In this document: positions 14,921-20,267 of the stretch, piece after piece
How positions within the stretch are numbered: position 1 is the stretch's first letter
Layout: the number at the start of each line of letters is the position of its first letter
Virus record (IMG/VR): IMGVR_UViG_3300018063_000007
Location: 1-50,846 of that record
Length of the DNA: 50,846 bases
Reading direction: 5' to 3' (one strand)
Source: a virus
The notes under the pieces: model-generated
The model's database searches: none
Told to the model about the DNA's origin: nothing
The model's input: the letters and a program-made list of their open reading frames with translations, nothing else
Position numbers and translations under genes: made by a program

Positions 14921-15081
14921 CGGTAGAGAATGTAAACTGGCACTTTACGTATACAGAAGACAAACGTGCTGTTGTAACAGAGGTTGGTGGGCGAGTTAAG
15001 TGGTACGTATATCGATGTTATGGTCTTCAAGGCTACATTTGGGTAGCTGCTAGCATACTTGAGCGTGGCGCATGGGCCTAG
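14917..15081 (+). CDS. Small hypothetical protein before polymerase
   Basis: 54 residues from GTG with GGAGGG upstream. It has an aromatic, beta-like composition (WHFTYTEDKR, VKWYVYRCYG, YIWVAAS). Its stop overlaps the polymerase ATG by 10 bases. No family was recognised. Confidence 0.5.
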   Translation: MTVENVNWHFTYTEDKRAVVTEVGGRVKWYVYRCYGLQGYIWVAASILERGAWA

Positions 15082-16352
15082 GCGTCAGGCACATCCACGA
15101 CATCGGCCTCCCACTCCTCCCAATCGTCCAGCAAGTGGGCATGCAGGGCCTTCCCTTCGACGCCCAGCGCCGCGAATCTCTGTTGATGGACTTCATCGAA
15201 CCTGAGCTAGCCAACCTCGCGGGCTCGCTTGCCGATTGTGGCATCACCGACGCCAAATCCACCAAGAAGCTGGGCGCTGCACTGGCCGCGCTAGGGGTGC
15301 CGCTGGAGAAACACACGAAGGGCGGTGAGCAATTCGCTGTCGACCTCGAAGTCCTCCGGCGTAAGCACCATGAGTTTAACGAGGCCGACGATCGCGTTCG
15401 CTTTCCCTTTCTCCCCACCCTCATACGCTTCAAGCAGTTTGAGAAGGCACGTGCGAACCTGCACAGCATGGTCTTGTGCAAGGACGGTCGCCTGCGCTGT
15501 CGGTTGAACTCGCTGGGGACGGAGACGGGTCGTTATTCGAGCGCGGGTCTTGGATGGTGCCCGCGTTGCCACCAACCGGATCATGGCACGAACCTCCAAA
15601 ACATTGCTAAGAACAACGCTGAGATAGGACTGAACCTCCGAGACGTTATTGTAGCACGCCCAGGGTACACACTACTAGAGTTCGACTACTCGATGCTTGA
15701 GCTAAGGATCTTGGCATACGTAGCGAACGTCAAACTGCTCATCGAGCGCCTCGAACGGGGCGACGACATCCACAGCGAACATGAACGCGACCTGTTCGGC
15801 ACGGTGGGCGAAAGTCGCACCCTCGCCAAGAACTTCGGTTTTGCCGCCATCTATGGTGGTAAGGCCAAAGCTATTCAGATGGCCCTCGCCAAGAAGGGCA
15901 TTTTCCTCGAACTCGCTGAGATTGAGCGTCTTCGCTCGATCATGCTCTACGAACGCTACCCCGAGATTATCTCGTGGCAGATCGACGCTGAACGTCAGAT
16001 CAACGCGCTGAAGCTGGCGAAGCTTCCTGTGGCGGTGCGTACGGTGTTCGGCTCCGCGCGAGTCTTACTCGGCTACGAGCCCCTCAAGGAGTGGCTCAGC
16101 ACTCGCATCCAGGGCACGGCTGGGTGGATTATGTCGTTTAACCTCCTACGGATGCGCAAGCAAACGCGGGGCTACCTATGTACGCAGATCCACGACGCCT
16201 TCTTAGCCGAGGTTCCCGCAAACATGATGATGCAGTATACAGCGGAGATGGTGGAGTTGATGGAACGTAAAGTCTGGATGCATGACCGCTTCGTGCGCTT
16301 TCCCGTCGATGTCAGTTGTGGTAGACGGTGGAGCGAGATGACGAAGTGCTGA
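15072..16352 (+). CDS. Family A DNA polymerase, polymerase domain only
   Basis: 426 residues, lacking the exonuclease domain, which is on the gene at 13285. It has TETGRYSS (R154), NLQNI (174-178), motif A FDYSMLELR with D205, motif B RTLAKNFGFAAIYG with R249, K253, F257 and Y261, and motif C IHDA with D375. Both catalytic Asp are present. Two oddities: the usual Glu of motif C (HDE) is Ala, and a CPRCHQPDH insertion before NLQN could bind zinc. Phe at the nucleotide-selecting O-helix position is E. coli-like. It is the replicative polymerase, probably working with the separate exonuclease. Confidence 0.9.
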   Translation: MGLGVRHIHDIGLPLLPIVQQVGMQGLPFDAQRRESLLMDFIEPELANLAGSLADCGITDAKSTKKLGAALAALGVPLEKHTKGGEQFAVDLEVLRRKHHEFNEADDRVRFPFLPTLIRFKQFEKARANLHSMVLCKDGRLRCRLNSLGTETGRYSSAGLGWCPRCHQPDHGTNLQNIAKNNAEIGLNLRDVIVARPGYTLLEFDYSMLELRILAYVANVKLLIERLERGDDIHSEHERDLFGTVGESRTLAKNFGFAAIYGGKAKAIQMALAKKGIFLELAEIERLRSIMLYERYPEIISWQIDAERQINALKLAKLPVAVRTVFGSARVLLGYEPLKEWLSTRIQGTAGWIMSFNLLRMRKQTRGYLCTQIHDAFLAEVPANMMMQYTAEMVELMERKVWMHDRFVRFPVDVSCGRRWSEMTKC

Positions 16353-17320
16353 AGGCCCAATCGCTTGGCTGGCTCATCGACCACCCGCCACCGGAGGTAA
16401 AATCACTATGGGGCAACGCATTGCTTCCACGCCGGGGTCTTACGCTTTTACATTCAGCCTCGAAACAGGGGAAATCTATGTTAGCATTGAACCTTGCTTT
16501 AGCTGGCGCGGCTGGATTGCCTCACTACTTAGGTTTCCCTATAGAATCTACGTTTACGACCTTCGTACTTCAAGGCGAAATCCACTTACGGGGAGTGTGG
16601 GAACGTGCCTCCCAAATGATTCGGACTATGGGCGCGACCCTACCGAGCGAGGCCATTAACCGGGTGATCGTGAACGAGGAGCGTACCCTGCGATTGGCGC
16701 AGTCGGAGATGTGGGATGAGTTCCGAGAGGTAGTGCGGTGGCTTCGGCCCGATTTGGTAATTCTCGACCCCTTCGCCCACGTGCTCACCGAGGATGAGAA
16801 CTCGAACGTCATCGTGGGCAAGATCCTCGAAAAGATCGCGGAGTTGCGTGACGACCCTGGATGCGCTATCCTTCTCGTACACCATGACGGCAAGCCCAGC
16901 GAAAGCACGTCGTCGCGCCAACCTCGCCAGCGCTCGCGTGGAGCAGATCGCCTTAACGCAGATCCAGACAGCATTCTCTCGTTGGTGCCGCTCCGCCGTC
17001 CCAAGGGCTCAGGCCCGCTCAGCCGTCTTGAGCCTGTCTCTCGATACGGGCGAAGTGTGGATTCTTTCGACGTGGCCCTCAACGAAGACACGCTCTGGTT
17101 TGAGCGTGCGACGCAAGAGGACACGGAAGACTTTGACATCGCCATCGCCTCGTTGGTTCCCCCTGGAGGCTGCTCCGAGCAAGAATTACTCAGAGCCTTT
17201 AACACTGTCAAAGGATATAGTGACGGGCGGTTACGTCAAGCTCGATCAGCTTTCGCAGAAGCCGTTGGGCAGGGTATTTTGCAGGTAGAGCATGGAGTCG
17301 TGAGAAAAAAGGAGGAGTGA
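16328..17320 (+). CDS. RepA-like replicative helicase (AAA_25 type)
   Basis: 330 residues from GTG 16328, overlapping the polymerase end by 25 bases. The P-loop HSASKQGKS (42-50) lacks the first Gly but keeps GKS. Walker B is PDLVILD (141-147), a sensor-like LLVHHDG is at 183-188, and an RGADRL segment follows. The last ~60 residues look like a winged helix (CSEQELLRAFN...GRLRQARSAF). This architecture matches hexameric RepA-type helicases. Its place after the polymerase supports a role in fork unwinding. Confidence 0.75.
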   Translation: MERDDEVLKAQSLGWLIDHPPPEVKSLWGNALLPRRGLTLLHSASKQGKSMLALNLALAGAAGLPHYLGFPIESTFTTFVLQGEIHLRGVWERASQMIRTMGATLPSEAINRVIVNEERTLRLAQSEMWDEFREVVRWLRPDLVILDPFAHVLTEDENSNVIVGKILEKIAELRDDPGCAILLVHHDGKPSESTSSRQPRQRSRGADRLNADPDSILSLVPLRRPKGSGPLSRLEPVSRYGRSVDSFDVALNEDTLWFERATQEDTEDFDIAIASLVPPGGCSEQELLRAFNTVKGYSDGRLRQARSAFAEAVGQGILQVEHGVVRKKEE

Positions 17321-17556
17321 TGCCATACATCCCTCAAGACGCTCGTAAACAGCTTGACAGCGGTGACATCCAAGGGGGAGGTTCCCTCTGTTACCTCATC
17401 ACCATGTTGTGTAAAGGCTACCTCCTTCAACGTGGCGAGAGCTACGACCATTATGGTGAGGTACGCCACGCCCTTGCTACGACGTGGGATGAGTACGTGC
17501 TACCGCGCTTTCGCACCTACGAGGCCAAGAAGCGCGAAACCAATGGTGAAGTGTGA
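17320..17556 (+). CDS. DUF6899-like conserved phage protein
   Basis: 78 residues from ATG 17320, with an AAAAAAGGAGGAG site that also overlaps the helicase stop. MPYIPQDARKQLDSG followed by GSLCYLITMLCKGYL and a final KKRETNGEV matches the common phage protein usually starting MPYI.qe.R and ending in NGDV (DUF6899 by memory). The function is unknown. Confidence 0.65.
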   Translation: MPYIPQDARKQLDSGDIQGGGSLCYLITMLCKGYLLQRGESYDHYGEVRHALATTWDEYVLPRFRTYEAKKRETNGEV

Positions 17557-17930
17557 GGATATACGTTGCGGGCACCTTCGGCGACCGCTCCAAGCTCAAG
17601 AAGATTGTCAAGCGCATCCGCGCCACGGGCCACGAAGTCTCTAGCTCATGGATGTACGAGGGCAAGCGCCCAGAGGGGCAAACGCATGAGCATTGGTTCC
17701 AGCAGCTCGCCCTCAAAGATTTGGCCGAAGTACGTAAGGCGAACCTCTTGATCCTCGACACACGTACCCGCTCGCCTCGTGGAGGTAAGAACGTAGAGTT
17801 TGGGGCTGCGCTCGTTGAGTATAAGTTCGTGTGGGTCGTCGGTCCAGTGCGCAACGTGTTCGAGACGCTCGCTGATGAGCACTTCCCAACGTGGGCGGCT
17901 GCGATAGCGCGATTGAAGGAGGCTGTGTGA
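17553..17930 (+). CDS. Nucleoside 2-deoxyribosyltransferase-like protein
   Basis: 125 residues from GTG 17553. It begins with the fold's first strand and glycine turn (RIYVAGTFGDR), has GHEV then W, an acidic D56 in KDLAEV, LLILDT, and GGKNVEFGAAL with the candidate catalytic E82. This is the pattern of the PF05014 family, which transfers deoxyribose between bases or hydrolyses deoxynucleosides. In phages such proteins join nucleotide salvage or base-modification pathways. The gene after it is dATP/dGTP-diphosphohydrolase-like. Confidence 0.7.
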   Translation: MRIYVAGTFGDRSKLKKIVKRIRATGHEVSSSWMYEGKRPEGQTHEHWFQQLALKDLAEVRKANLLILDTRTRSPRGGKNVEFGAALVEYKFVWVVGPVRNVFETLADEHFPTWAAAIARLKEAV

Positions 17931-18328
17931 CCACGAACCTACTAACATGTACGAAGTGTCATGGTAAATACCCTCGTGAGGAGCTTGACACACATCCATG
18001 CGAACCTCGGTCACGCAAAGAGATGCTTGACGCGCAGCGGATGCTTGACGCACAGCGACCAGGTGTCGCGTACGATCTAAGCGAGCAAGATGAAGTGCTC
18101 GCCATCTTCATGGTGATGCTGAAGGAAGTTACCGCTGATGGGGGCCGAAAGCGGGCAAAGGGTGCAAAGCCGTCATGGAAGGTCGATCCTTCACATGAAG
18201 CAGCGATCTTCTCTCACCTAAACAGGTGGAAGCATGGTGAGAAGGTCGATCCCGATAGTGGTACTCACCCACTCGTGCATCTTGCGTGGCGGGCGCTGGC
18301 GATTGCGTATCAGGAGGGCGCCCGTTGA
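17927..18328 (+). CDS. dATP/dGTP diphosphohydrolase-like protein (DUF5664 type) with zinc N-terminus
   Basis: 133 residues from GTG 17927. The N-terminus has CTKC and H23...C25, a possible zinc site. Two tandem MLDAQR copies follow (residues ~33-44). The C-terminal domain (GAKPSWK, SHLNRWKHGEKVDPDSG, H114, H118) matches the family annotated as dATP/dGTP diphosphohydrolase N-terminal domain, usually G.KY...NW...RH...GE..D.ESG..H..H. Hydrolysis of dATP or dGTP is the family suggestion. It lies next to a deoxyribosyltransferase-like gene. Confidence 0.6.
   Translation: MTTNLLTCTKCHGKYPREELDTHPCEPRSRKEMLDAQRMLDAQRPGVAYDLSEQDEVLAIFMVMLKEVTADGGRKRAKGAKPSWKVDPSHEAAIFSHLNRWKHGEKVDPDSGTHPLVHLAWRALAIAYQEGAR
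18023..18058 (+). repeat. Tandem 18-bp repeat inside coding sequence
   Basis: 18023-18040 and 18041-18058 differ at two positions and both encode MLDAQR. It is an in-frame duplication in the linker of the surrounding gene. Confidence 0.85.
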
Positions 18329-18693
18329 AAATACTCCTGCTGGACATCGCGTGGCTTGCTGGGCTGTTAGAGGGCGAAGGTTCTTTCCATATTAGTACAA
18401 AGCGAGGTAAGCCAAGTTCATTGCTCGTTGTTGTGCAAATGACTGACGGCGATATAATTGAGCGGGTGGCGCAGCTATTCAATAGGCCGATGCATGGGCC
18501 CTACAAACGCCGCAATCCTTCGTACAAGCCTTTTTACTCTACGAGTATCTCGGCGAGTAGCGCTGCTAGCTGGATGATGACGCTTTATCCTTTTCTTGGT
18601 CAAAGACGCCGAGAGAAGATTAAGGAGCTTTTACATTTCTGGCGAGCACAAGCTGCTGGACGAGGAGGACGGCCACGCGCATCTTATTGCTAG
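18325..18693 (+). CDS. LAGLIDADG homing endonuclease
   Basis: 122 residues from TTG 18325, with an AGGAGGG site six bases upstream. One LAGLIDADG motif (LAGLLEGEG, residues 11-19) followed by GSFHIS, a QMTD segment and a C-terminal helix (RRREKIKELLHFW); single-motif enzymes act as dimers. The first residues LKILLLDI are not typical of this family but match the start of the exonuclease gene that follows, whose frame repeats RILLLDI at 18678-18698. The endonuclease therefore appears inserted just after the start of that gene. It overlaps the upstream stop (TTGA). Confidence 0.85.
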   Translation: MKILLLDIAWLAGLLEGEGSFHISTKRGKPSSLLVVVQMTDGDIIERVAQLFNRPMHGPYKRRNPSYKPFYSTSISASSAASWMMTLYPFLGQRRREKIKELLHFWRAQAAGRGGRPRASYC

Positions 18694-19415
18694 ATATAGA
18701 GACGAGCCCAAATACTGTATTCACATGGGGTTTGTTCAAACAAAATATCTCTACCGACAAGATCATCGACTCTAGTTCTGTCCTCTGCTGGGCCGCTAAG
18801 TGGTACGGTGAGCGCCAAGTGATGTTCGATTCCGTGCATGCATCGAAACCTAAGATGATGCTCCGCCGTATGCACAAACTCCTTGACGAAGCCGACGCCG
18901 TGATAACCTACTTCGGTGACTCGTTCGACCTTCCTACGTTGTCGAAGGAGTTTGTGCTTCATGGATTCACACCCCCGGCACCATTCAAGAAGGTGGACCT
19001 CTGCCGTGTTGTCCAACGTACGTTCAAGTTCCCGTCGAACAAGCTCGACTATGTTGGACAAGCCCTTGGCCTAGGTATGAAGACGCGCCACACTGGCTTT
19101 GAGATGTGGGTGCAGTGCATGGCGGGCGACGCGAAGGCGTGGAAGCTGATGGAGAAGTATAATCGTAGAGATGTGACATTGCTTGAGCAACTCTACGACC
19201 GCCTCAAACCTTGGATCAAGTCTCACCCCAACCATCGGCTCTACGACGACGACGCCCTCTGCCCTAACTGTGGGAGCGTACGCCACCAGCGAAGGGGTTA
19301 CGCTATGAGCAAGGTGCTCAAGTATTCTCGTTTTCAGTGCTTAGAGTGTGGCACGTGGTTCCGCTCGACGCATTGCGTGAAGGATGCGACAACGCGGTAC
19401 ACACAGGTTCAATGA
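18687..19415 (+). CDS. RNase H-fold 3'-5' exonuclease (YprB-like) with zinc ribbon
   Basis: 242 residues counted from TTG 18687. Related phage proteins start M(K/R)ILLLDIETSP. Here that position is ACG 18675, which has AGGAGG at ideal distance, so initiation at ACG (246 residues) is possible. Catalytic pattern: DIE (D3, E5), GDSFD (D81), YNRRD (Y158, D162). C192/C195 and C218/C221 form a C-terminal zinc ribbon. It probably degrades DNA or RNA from the 3' end. The original start region seems to be the one now used by the homing endonuclease at 18325. Confidence 0.75.
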   Translation: MLDIETSPNTVFTWGLFKQNISTDKIIDSSSVLCWAAKWYGERQVMFDSVHASKPKMMLRRMHKLLDEADAVITYFGDSFDLPTLSKEFVLHGFTPPAPFKKVDLCRVVQRTFKFPSNKLDYVGQALGLGMKTRHTGFEMWVQCMAGDAKAWKLMEKYNRRDVTLLEQLYDRLKPWIKSHPNHRLYDDDALCPNCGSVRHQRRGYAMSKVLKYSRFQCLECGTWFRSTHCVKDATTRYTQVQ

Positions 19416-19690
19416 AAAAGTTCATCCCCCTCCAAGTCGACGTAATCTGGGACGATGCTCGCGACGAGCCCGGTGAGTGGGATCTTGACGACGTAATCGC
19501 TGGGAAAGGGCCACAACCCAAGCGCAACCGCTCAACTGGCGGTCGACTCTGCTACGTATGTGAGGAGTACATCACGCTTATGCACGACTGGGACGCTGAT
19601 ACTCGCGACGTAGGCAATGCAACGACGATCTTCGTGGGTTGGATTAAGTTAATCACACACCCGCGTCGAGGAGCGCTCTACCGCCGATGA
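19412..19690 (+). CDS. Hypothetical protein
   Basis: 92 residues from ATG 19412 (ATGA overlap with the exonuclease). It starts MKKFIPLQVDVIWDDARDEP and has one CYVC pair in the middle. The C-terminus is basic. No family was recognised. Confidence 0.6.
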   Translation: MKKFIPLQVDVIWDDARDEPGEWDLDDVIAGKGPQPKRNRSTGGRLCYVCEEYITLMHDWDADTRDVGNATTIFVGWIKLITHPRRGALYRR

Positions 19691-19857
19691 CAAGCTGGCT
19701 CGATCTTCGTATCGAATGGGGCCTGTTCACGTGCATGAACTGCTGGCGCATCCAGCTATTCTGGCCGGGAGGTGCGTTCGCACGAGGGCCGAGCGGCAAA
19801 CTACGGTGGCTATGCCGTCCATGCTGGTTTAGCTGGTACAGAAGGGCACAGTCATGA
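19687..19857 (+). CDS. Trp/Cys-rich microprotein
   Basis: 56 residues, ATG overlapping the previous stop. It is rich in Trp (seven) with CMNC and C..C (LCRPC), possibly a small zinc ribbon. The function is unknown. Confidence 0.5.
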   Translation: MTSWLDLRIEWGLFTCMNCWRIQLFWPGGAFARGPSGKLRWLCRPCWFSWYRRAQS

Positions 19858-20267
19858 GTAAGCGGAAGGTGCCGAGTGGTGCGGCTGAACTCACACCCGC
19901 TGGGGCGTGGCTTGCTGGCTATCACGCTGGGCTGCGTGTCGGGCAGGTAGCGTCACCACCGCCAAGTCCTACGAAAGAGCCAGAATCGAACACCTGGGCT
20001 ATCCTTTGGTTCGGGGCCACTTTGTTGCTTGCTTGTGCCCTCGTGGCTTGTGTTCTGACTGATCCTATTTGCGACTGCGCTAAGCCACGTCCAGAGGCTC
20101 AGCCGCTGGAGACGATTCCCCGGCAGAGTCCGCTGGTCGTCCACGACCCAGGAGCCATGCTGTTGCCTGCCAACTGGCGATGCGGAGTCGGACGCTCCAG
20201 AGTTCGAGTCGGAGCCAGGCCGTTCGGCGTTGTCGTCGCCTCTCAAATAATCCATGAGCGTAGATGA
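19854..20267 (+). CDS. Single-pass membrane protein, last early gene
   Basis: 137 residues. A hydrophilic N-terminus contains TPAGAWLAGYHAGLRVGQ and a Pro-rich stretch, then one membrane span (WFGATLLLACALVACVL, ~53-69), then a Pro/Arg-rich tail. The gene ends 10 bases from the end of the convergent late block. The last third of the frame may be non-conserved tail. The function is unknown. Confidence 0.5.
   Translation: MSKRKVPSGAAELTPAGAWLAGYHAGLRVGQVASPPPSPTKEPESNTWAILWFGATLLLACALVACVLTDPICDCAKPRPEAQPLETIPRQSPLVVHDPGAMLLPANWRCGVGRSRVRVGARPFGVVVASQIIHERR

Follow-up and report, generated by a model that had tools for sequence, protein, structure and literature searches.

Duplicated start of a viral proofreading-exonuclease gene suggests start capture by a LAGLIDADG homing endonuclease

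Introduction

How can a freestanding homing endonuclease land in an important gene without destroying it? The question is raised by a 50.8-kb virus record of IMG/VR (IMGVR_UViG_3300018063_000007; the whole record is referred to here as the window). In this record, a gene for a LAGLIDADG endonuclease sits at the 5' end of the gene for a proofreading exonuclease, and the start peptide of the exonuclease is encoded on both sides of the endonuclease. In our judgment it is very probable that the endonuclease homed into the 5' end of the exonuclease gene, took its start and has a 5' end from a donor behind it. Loci of relatives are designated by L-numbers.

Results

The endonuclease is encoded by an open reading frame (ORF) of 122 amino acids at 18325–18693, which carries a single motif, LAGLLEGEG, and ends with a TAG stop at 18691–18693. 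All features of this locus given here lie on the plus strand. The ORF opens TTG AAA ATA CTC CTG CTG GAC ATC GCG TGG CTT GCT GGG, that is, (L/M)KILLLDIAWLAGLLEGEG, and a perfect Shine-Dalgarno sequence, AGGAGG (18312–18317), stands 7 nt 5' of the TTG at 18325. The gene for the DNA polymerase exonuclease subunit (DnaQ/RNase H-like; phrog_403, E 2.4e-82; Pfam RNase_H_2, E 5.6e-13) occupies 18675–19415 in a different reading frame, which opens (T)RILLLDIETSPNT and reads on as RILLLDIETSPNTVFTWGLFKQN. It contains LLLDIE, which we take to be the first catalytic motif of the exonuclease. Behind the endonuclease stands another 5' end of the exonuclease, written in different codons (its first 27, 18675–18755); it fits the codon usage of this phage poorly and overlaps the last codons of the endonuclease, up to 18693.

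The original prediction had placed KILLLDI and RILLLDIE on the two sides of the endonuclease, the former behind a strong ribosome-binding site. Reading of the sequence confirms this, and the site is AGGAGG. The claim that the shared ILLLDI is written with different synonymous codons at every position is also correct: ATA CTC CTG CTG GAC ATC upstream compares with ATC TTA TTG CTA GAT ATA downstream; no codon of the six is the same, and 11 of the 18 bases agree. The stretch from the TTG through the G that follows ATC (18325–18349) is the putative captured exonuclease 5' end, fused in frame to the endonuclease. These features support a reading in which the endonuclease would now use the ribosome-binding site, the TTG start and the first 7–8 codons of the exonuclease.

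The endonuclease matched Pfam LAGLIDADG_3 with E 2.3e-4 and 21.8 bits, just below the curated cut-off of 22.5. LAGLLEGEG corresponds to residues 11–19, and W10, G13, E16, G17 and E18 are invariant in 14 aligned sequences. The AlphaFold model (predicted local distance difference test score, pLDDT, of 91.5) had I-CvuI, I-MsoI and I-CreI as its best PDB matches, and Foldseek gave E 2.3e-5 and a TM-score of 0.68 on the query for I-CvuI. Among the 50 PDB matches listed, all are LAGLIDADG endonucleases or engineered forms, with these three on top; the family of some of the entries is presumed. The predicted fold is I-CreI-like. PHROG family phrog_5046, which matches these LAGLIDADG proteins, is labelled "HNH endonuclease", a label that the predicted fold contradicts.

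I-CreI, I-CvuI and I-MsoI are intron-encoded. The endonuclease of the window resembles them in its predicted fold and its one LAGLIDADG-type motif, but differs in being freestanding and joined to the start of its target gene. If the insert were instead an intron or intein, its removal would join the upstream KILLLDI to the exonuclease body. The upstream TTG, Shine-Dalgarno sequence and codons do resemble a true exonuclease start, and the downstream copy lacks a usual start codon. However, a search of 17000–20000 of the window against Rfam (E up to 1) gave zero matches, the endonuclease takes up the whole insert, and an intein would be in frame with both host parts, whereas here the frames differ and the endonuclease carries its own TAG. 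A removable insert, moreover, need not encode RILLLDI at its 3' end, and at three other loci with this endonuclease (L104, L105 and L113) no exonuclease start peptide stands upstream. On the empty Rfam search and the differing frames, the endonuclease is freestanding, outside any intron or intein, and this explanation was rejected as exceedingly unlikely.

Is the start peptide native to the endonuclease or captured from the exonuclease? Relatives of the endonuclease were collected from viral contigs, and the starts of 95 of 113 loci were compared together with the window, giving 89 members elsewhere and 7 on the exonuclease gene. Here "elsewhere" means that no exonuclease was detected beside the endonuclease in the available DNA, a few loci ending soon after the endonuclease. 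Among the 89, the start is variable and often ends in DIAWLAG (D in 53, I in 64, A in 47). Had KILLLDI been a native part of the endonuclease, relatives at unrelated sites would be expected to start with it; none of the 89 matched at 6 or more of the 7 positions and the best, a single case, matched at 5, compared with 7 of 7 in the window and L094. From the independent column frequencies of the 89 endonucleases, KILLLDI is expected with P ~1.5e-6 per gene. When the start of each endonuclease was set against the sequence downstream of its gene, a match of 6 of 7 or better was confined to the window and L094, and mismatched pairs reached at most 5. The shared ILLLDI, which the original prediction treated as a start peptide of the exonuclease, must on this comparison be divided. 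KILL is the diagnostic, non-native part, but LDI belongs in part to the native endonuclease start, and the GACATCG of the captured segment may derive from either parent, LDI being common to both.

The same comparison was applied to other genes. None of the 89 relatives elsewhere reached 6 of 7 with the region behind, so that no start capture by this LAGLIDADG family was detected at them; three loci, two of them near-copies, reached 5 of 7, a level found in 0.85% of mismatched pairs. If a close relative carried KILLLDIAWLAG at a site unrelated to the exonuclease, this would refute capture. A scan of viral contigs for the pattern KILLLDIxW returned 32 stretches, of which only L172, on the same contig as L094, is such an endonuclease, and a scan of genome contigs returned 2 hits, both irrelevant.

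Sequence upstream of the endonuclease also matches other exonuclease genes. The preceding gene (17927–18328), which encodes a dATP/dGTP diphosphohydrolase N-terminal domain (Pfam PF18909, E 5.7e-9), has a TGA stop that overlaps the TTG of the endonuclease by 4 nt, as TTGA. In relatives L020, L324 and L012, which lack such an endonuclease insert, the same 4-nt stop/start overlap precedes the exonuclease. AGGAGG at 18312–18317 would then have been the original ribosome-binding site of the exonuclease.

These data bear on the possibility that KILLLDI arose by chance or convergence and that the endonuclease merely lies upstream of an intact exonuclease. A native start such as MIKTLDIAWLAG would need few changes, LDIAW is native to the family, one relative elsewhere matches at 5 of 7, and five exonuclease-adjacent members lack KILL. 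Against this stand the low expected frequency and the fact that both KILLLDI members are on the exonuclease gene. In addition, the stop/start overlap and the TTG match other exonucleases, an unrelated HNH endonuclease on the same gene also starts MKILLLD, and capture can be read directly in a second system (both described next). Chance resemblance is therefore very unlikely, and it was rejected on the absence of matches at 6 of 7 or better among the 89, the HNH fusion, and the comparison of own with mismatched pairs.

In the case of L013, a protein of the HNH type with an I-HmuI-like NUMOD domain (PF22083, PF13392) lies directly upstream of the exonuclease. Its gene starts ATG AAA ATA TTA TTG CTA GAT TAC, MKILLLDYSVTEDG (MKILLLD); the exonuclease follows with its own ATG, MKILLLDIESAPN, and the two copies share 4 of 7 codons. 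Of 40 listed phage relatives of the L013 protein, 31 align with it only from residue 7 or 8 onward; in the other 9 the match begins at residue 1 or 2. The two PHROG profiles that match it best also start only at residue 7. A 13-base run upstream of L013 is common to the exonuclease of L066, a locus without such an insert. A search for relatives of the L013 endonuclease in viral contigs found only itself. Among 12 HNH relatives from phage records (L402–L405 and L412–L419, of which L403 and L419 are near-copies), the match to KILLLD was at most 3 of 6; L406 was read by eye.

Two of these relatives are of separate interest. In a Zobellviridae phage (L402, PQ867851.1 24056–24544), an I-HmuI-like endonuclease lies between thyX and the exonuclease. 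It starts VKIAIIDF, a sequence similar to the start of an exonuclease, and is possibly another case of start capture. In Vibrio phage henriette 12B8 (L405, HQ316582.1 5986–8586), an HNH-type gene lies between two anaerobic ribonucleotide reductase ORFs, and the reductase gene looks like one split by an endonuclease. The Zobellviridae locus was excluded from the count of start captures, because the gene between the reductase ORFs starts MKFVFID.

The strongest evidence for start capture comes from Gordonia phage Conley (OR159671.1), found among the 12 HNH relatives. Its HNH endonuclease gene (gp83, L418) is followed by a DNA helicase gene (gp84), and the region concerned (L420:785–2556 = OR159671.1 53384–55155) holds the HNH gene with the first 70 helicase bases. 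Uninterrupted helicase alleles are present in Gordonia phage Petito (PP758912.1, gp87) and in other Gordonia phages. The first 70 bases of the Conley HNH gene equal the Petito helicase start with zero mismatches, and the match ends at the codons for GGVGTGK, presumably the P-loop of the helicase. Upstream, the nearest 100 bases of the two phages are 98% identical and identity is 93–98% per 150-base window to ~900 bases; beyond that, leftward, there are poorer windows of 89%, 63% and 75%. Behind the endonuclease, the Conley helicase is 71% identical to that of Petito in three 150-base windows, and then 83, 89, 93, 98 and 97%. Within their first 23 codons, the two 5' copies in Conley have 7 codons and 18 residues identical. 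The Conley endonuclease ends GGAGGATTAATG, with GGAGG preceding the helicase ATG, and its end therefore supplies a Shine-Dalgarno sequence and overlaps the new helicase start. Of 61 records, Conley is the only one with coverage of 80% or more of the queried region; the Gordonia relatives listed align with it piecewise, in stretches annotated as helicase, and four of these relatives were read. Judged from the alignment with Petito, the endonuclease carries the start that belonged to the recipient, and a donor tract of roughly 450–600 bases brought in the second 5' end.

For the window, the origin of the second 5' end was assessed by codon usage. For codons 4–27 of the exonuclease, the mean codon score is lower by 0.323 than in the remainder of the gene. 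The same difference in 44 other genes has a mean of -0.011 (standard deviation 0.128), with none of the 44 as low; for GC3, 1 of the 44 is as low. The codon score of the endonuclease is lower than all 47 gene means listed. Because the starts of the other genes were called mechanically, this result is moderate evidence only, and to that degree it supports a foreign origin of the second 5' end of the exonuclease.

Two copies of a start could also arise if the 5' end of the exonuclease gene had been duplicated around the endonuclease by a local tandem event and its synonymous sites had then drifted. The L013 copies, with 4 of 7 codons in common, fit such a history, as does a protein-level donor test of the window, in which residues 10–27 were nearer to other insert-bearing exonucleases (p=0.029) but the control stretch 100–117 behaved alike (p=0.015); this test was dropped as support for a donor. 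In the window itself, however, none of the six codons is identical and the codon deviation extends past the duplicated peptide, and in Conley the deviation from Petito, ~450–600 bases, runs far beyond the part present twice. We consider a tandem duplication quite unlikely. The idea that the codon differences point to an imported allele finds support in Conley; for the window it rests on codon usage and on the parallel with Conley. As a general pattern, a difference at every codon does not hold, since L013 keeps 4 of 7 codons and Conley 7 of 23. The further proposal, that the exonuclease gene was invaded behind its first codons and lost its start signal to the endonuclease, is supported by the absence of KILL elsewhere, by L013 and by Conley.

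From which codon is the exonuclease now translated? The downstream copy has no ATG, GTG or TTG at the expected start; the codon aligned with the start codons of relatives is ACG (18675–18677). A second Shine-Dalgarno sequence, GAGGAGG (18662–18668), lies within the 3' end of the endonuclease gene, 6 nt 5' of this codon; the GGAGG of Conley occupies the corresponding place. The first usual start codon in frame is a TTG at 18687–18689, inside the first beta strand of the exonuclease model. Because this predicted strand spans residues 3–10, initiation at the TTG would cut off its first residues. At the other loci with this endonuclease, the aligned start reads ATG CGN in L094, L105 and L113, GTG AAA in L107 and ATA CGT in L104, compared with ACG CGC in the window.

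The exonuclease frame was present in all 247 entries, with 4 second copies (L198, L321, L323 and L350) and L369 without the motif, and the entries represent 176 distinct loci. Only 4 of the 176 have none of ATG, GTG and TTG at the aligned start position or ahead of it: the window (ACG), L104 (ATA), L330 (ATC) and L382. In all four the exonuclease lies directly behind a nuclease-type gene (window 18675; L104:2949; L330:2098–2620; L382:541–990), of the LAGLIDADG family in the window and L104, an endonuclease VII in L330 and a NinG/Rap-like HNH protein in L382, the last assigned by PHROG and without a Pfam match at 0.001. On a first, incomplete list, an unusual start was found at 3 of 10 loci behind a nuclease gene versus 1 of 166 others (Fisher p = 0.0005, for a comparison framed post hoc). 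This suggests that endonuclease insertion is linked to loss of the usual start codon in the proofreading exonuclease.

For the expression step alone, the same data could mean that initiation at the exonuclease's own start has ceased, and that the gene is decaying or yields only a low-level product. The ACG, ATA and ATC codons, and the position of all four unusual-start loci of the 176 behind a nuclease-type gene, favour this explanation. It is countered by a frame that stays open across 246 codons with conserved residues present, and by GAGGAGG 6 nt before the ACG, and we regard it as fairly unlikely. A ribosomal frameshift from endonuclease into exonuclease was also considered and rejected, as no slippery heptamer was seen by eye in the overlap.

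A nuclease-type gene lies directly upstream of the exonuclease at 13 or more of the 176 loci (7 LAGLIDADG, L013, L007, L330, L383, L395 and L382). The scan of upstream genes covered 168 of the 176 loci, those with an ORF of at least 50 amino acids; Pfam was run on 83 of 90 cluster representatives (the remaining 7 are the endonucleases) and further revealed, upstream of the exonuclease, a phage endonuclease I and a PD-(D/E)XK match. The genes of the endonuclease VII type are at L007:898–1299, L330:2098–2484, L383:726–1097 and L395:2008–2499, and that of L007 overlaps the exonuclease start by 20 nt. It seems that genes from several nuclease families are drawn to the 5' side of the exonuclease gene.

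The LAGLIDADG family is found directly upstream of the exonuclease in the window and at six further loci (L094, L104, L105, L107, L113 and L279). At six of these seven loci the endonuclease ORF runs into the aligned exonuclease codons, and in L104 it stops just before them. KILLLDI is kept only in the window and L094. On a tree of the endonucleases, from which L135, L150, L151, duplicates and short rows were left out, the seven exonuclease-adjacent members require 2 label changes (0 of 500 shuffles as low). On the exonuclease tree, the insert-bearing loci require 5 (19 of 500 shuffles as low). The exonucleases of L104, L105, L107 and L279 fall in one starred set of six rows that mixes both endonuclease groups, and the remaining three are found in other parts of the tree. 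Neither tree is more than weakly resolved; together they suggest that the endonuclease may have moved between exonuclease lineages.

Several observations weigh against capture from the exonuclease and a donor 5' end in the window. Because LDI is native to the endonuclease, the position of the breakpoint is ambiguous. Five of the seven family members on the exonuclease start otherwise than KILLLDI, and capture is therefore not obligatory. With four of the seven in one set of six, part of the pattern may reflect common descent. Arginine at residue 2 is found in 5 of 7 insert-bearing exonucleases and also at 12 of 138 other loci, and the protein-level donor test described above gave a similar result for its control stretch. 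Some HNH relatives elsewhere have hydrophobic starts (MKFVFIDG in L405), and part of the L013 start could, by this comparison, be native. The comparison with a related uninterrupted allele that the original prediction called for found no close empty allele of the window's gene, the nearest exonuclease being ~60% identical.

The window also contains a gene for a family-A DNA polymerase, at 15072–16352.

Discussion

Endonuclease genes within conserved genes are known from other systems. In fungal mitochondria, PMC3630166 describes mobile ORFs (mORFs; in Allomyces atp6 and in Glomus atp6, atp9, cox2 and nad3), in which a LAGLIDADG or GIY-YIG endonuclease lies in a conserved gene. The duplicated gene end encodes nearly the same protein with many synonymous differences (the atp6 copies have 63.5% DNA identity), and horizontal transfer is proposed for the donor end (PMC3630166). 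The window resembles these elements, as described there, in having an endonuclease in a conserved gene and an end present twice, ILLLDI, with the same protein and diverged DNA; a foreign replacement end is found in Conley. However, mORFs replace the 3' end, that is, the carboxy terminus, and leave the native one behind, whereas in the window it is the 5' end that is concerned and the start signal that is taken. The window case is a 5' mirror image of the mORFs and not one of them, as it is not the 3' end that is replaced.

In T4-like phages, according to PMC2988022, freestanding endonucleases insert where a gene is critical for function; their flanks are co-converted and they overlap neighbouring ORFs, and genes are split by mobE in Aeh1 nrdA, mobA in T4 gene 60 and seg43 in phage 25 gene 43. 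The window shares the freestanding endonuclease in a critical gene region and the overlaps with neighbouring ORFs. As presented in that source, the host genes are split into two polypeptides; in the window, by contrast, the downstream ORF is a whole exonuclease and the upstream remnant forms the first residues of the endonuclease. ShiLan (PMC11855218) is an HNH element that lies out of frame within methylase genes of phages. It is similar in its position among conserved codons, in lacking a known splicing element and in its overlapping frames, but the methylase stays one ORF through the insert, and the passages of that paper drawn on here describe neither a duplicated start nor start capture. 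Replacement of 3' ends in mORFs and split genes in phages are thus known, and what appears new is the 5' end with start capture in a phage; the literature searches, limited to open-licence PubMed Central papers, turned up no account of a phage 5' counterpart in which the start signal is captured.

How could capture from the exonuclease, with a donor 5' end, have come about? In the simplest account, and the likely one, homing used one homologous arm: the endonuclease would have cut an empty allele at the conserved motif codons (LLLDIE). The gene-body side of the break would then have been repaired by homology from a donor that carried the endonuclease and a complete target gene, and the other side would have been joined in frame, in the window at the LDI codons common to both genes. 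The product would be the recipient start, the endonuclease, a donor 5' tract and, further down, the recipient body. For the window we infer this order of recipient start on the endonuclease and donor 5' tract behind it; the same order was read directly in Conley. The diverged second copy would be a poor target and may itself be immune. The exonuclease would probably be translated from the internal GAGGAGG and the weak ACG, aided by ribosomes that leave the overlapping endonuclease frame.

A more general route can be proposed only tentatively, as a possibility somewhat short of even: unrelated families of freestanding phage endonucleases may invade the 5' part of important genes by start capture, the targets in some lineages then becoming dependent on them. 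In this general form, the cut would fall at the first conserved motif codons (DxE in the exonuclease, the P-loop region in the Conley helicase) and one homologous arm would be used. The recipient start would be kept by the endonuclease, and the donor 5' end would have its own ribosome-binding site inside the endonuclease gene. The 5' version in phages has been seen with both LAGLIDADG and HNH enzymes, and at two genes, which points to a solution of general use.

The locus provides a readable record of how a freestanding endonuclease can insert into an important gene and yet spare it, the start of the target being captured in frame while another start region comes in with the element. Start capture can be put to a direct test with Conley and Petito, both of them cultured Gordonia phages. 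If the general route is true, synthesis of the target would in some lineages, those with ACG or ATA starts, come to depend on translation of the endonuclease, and the element would be hard to lose.

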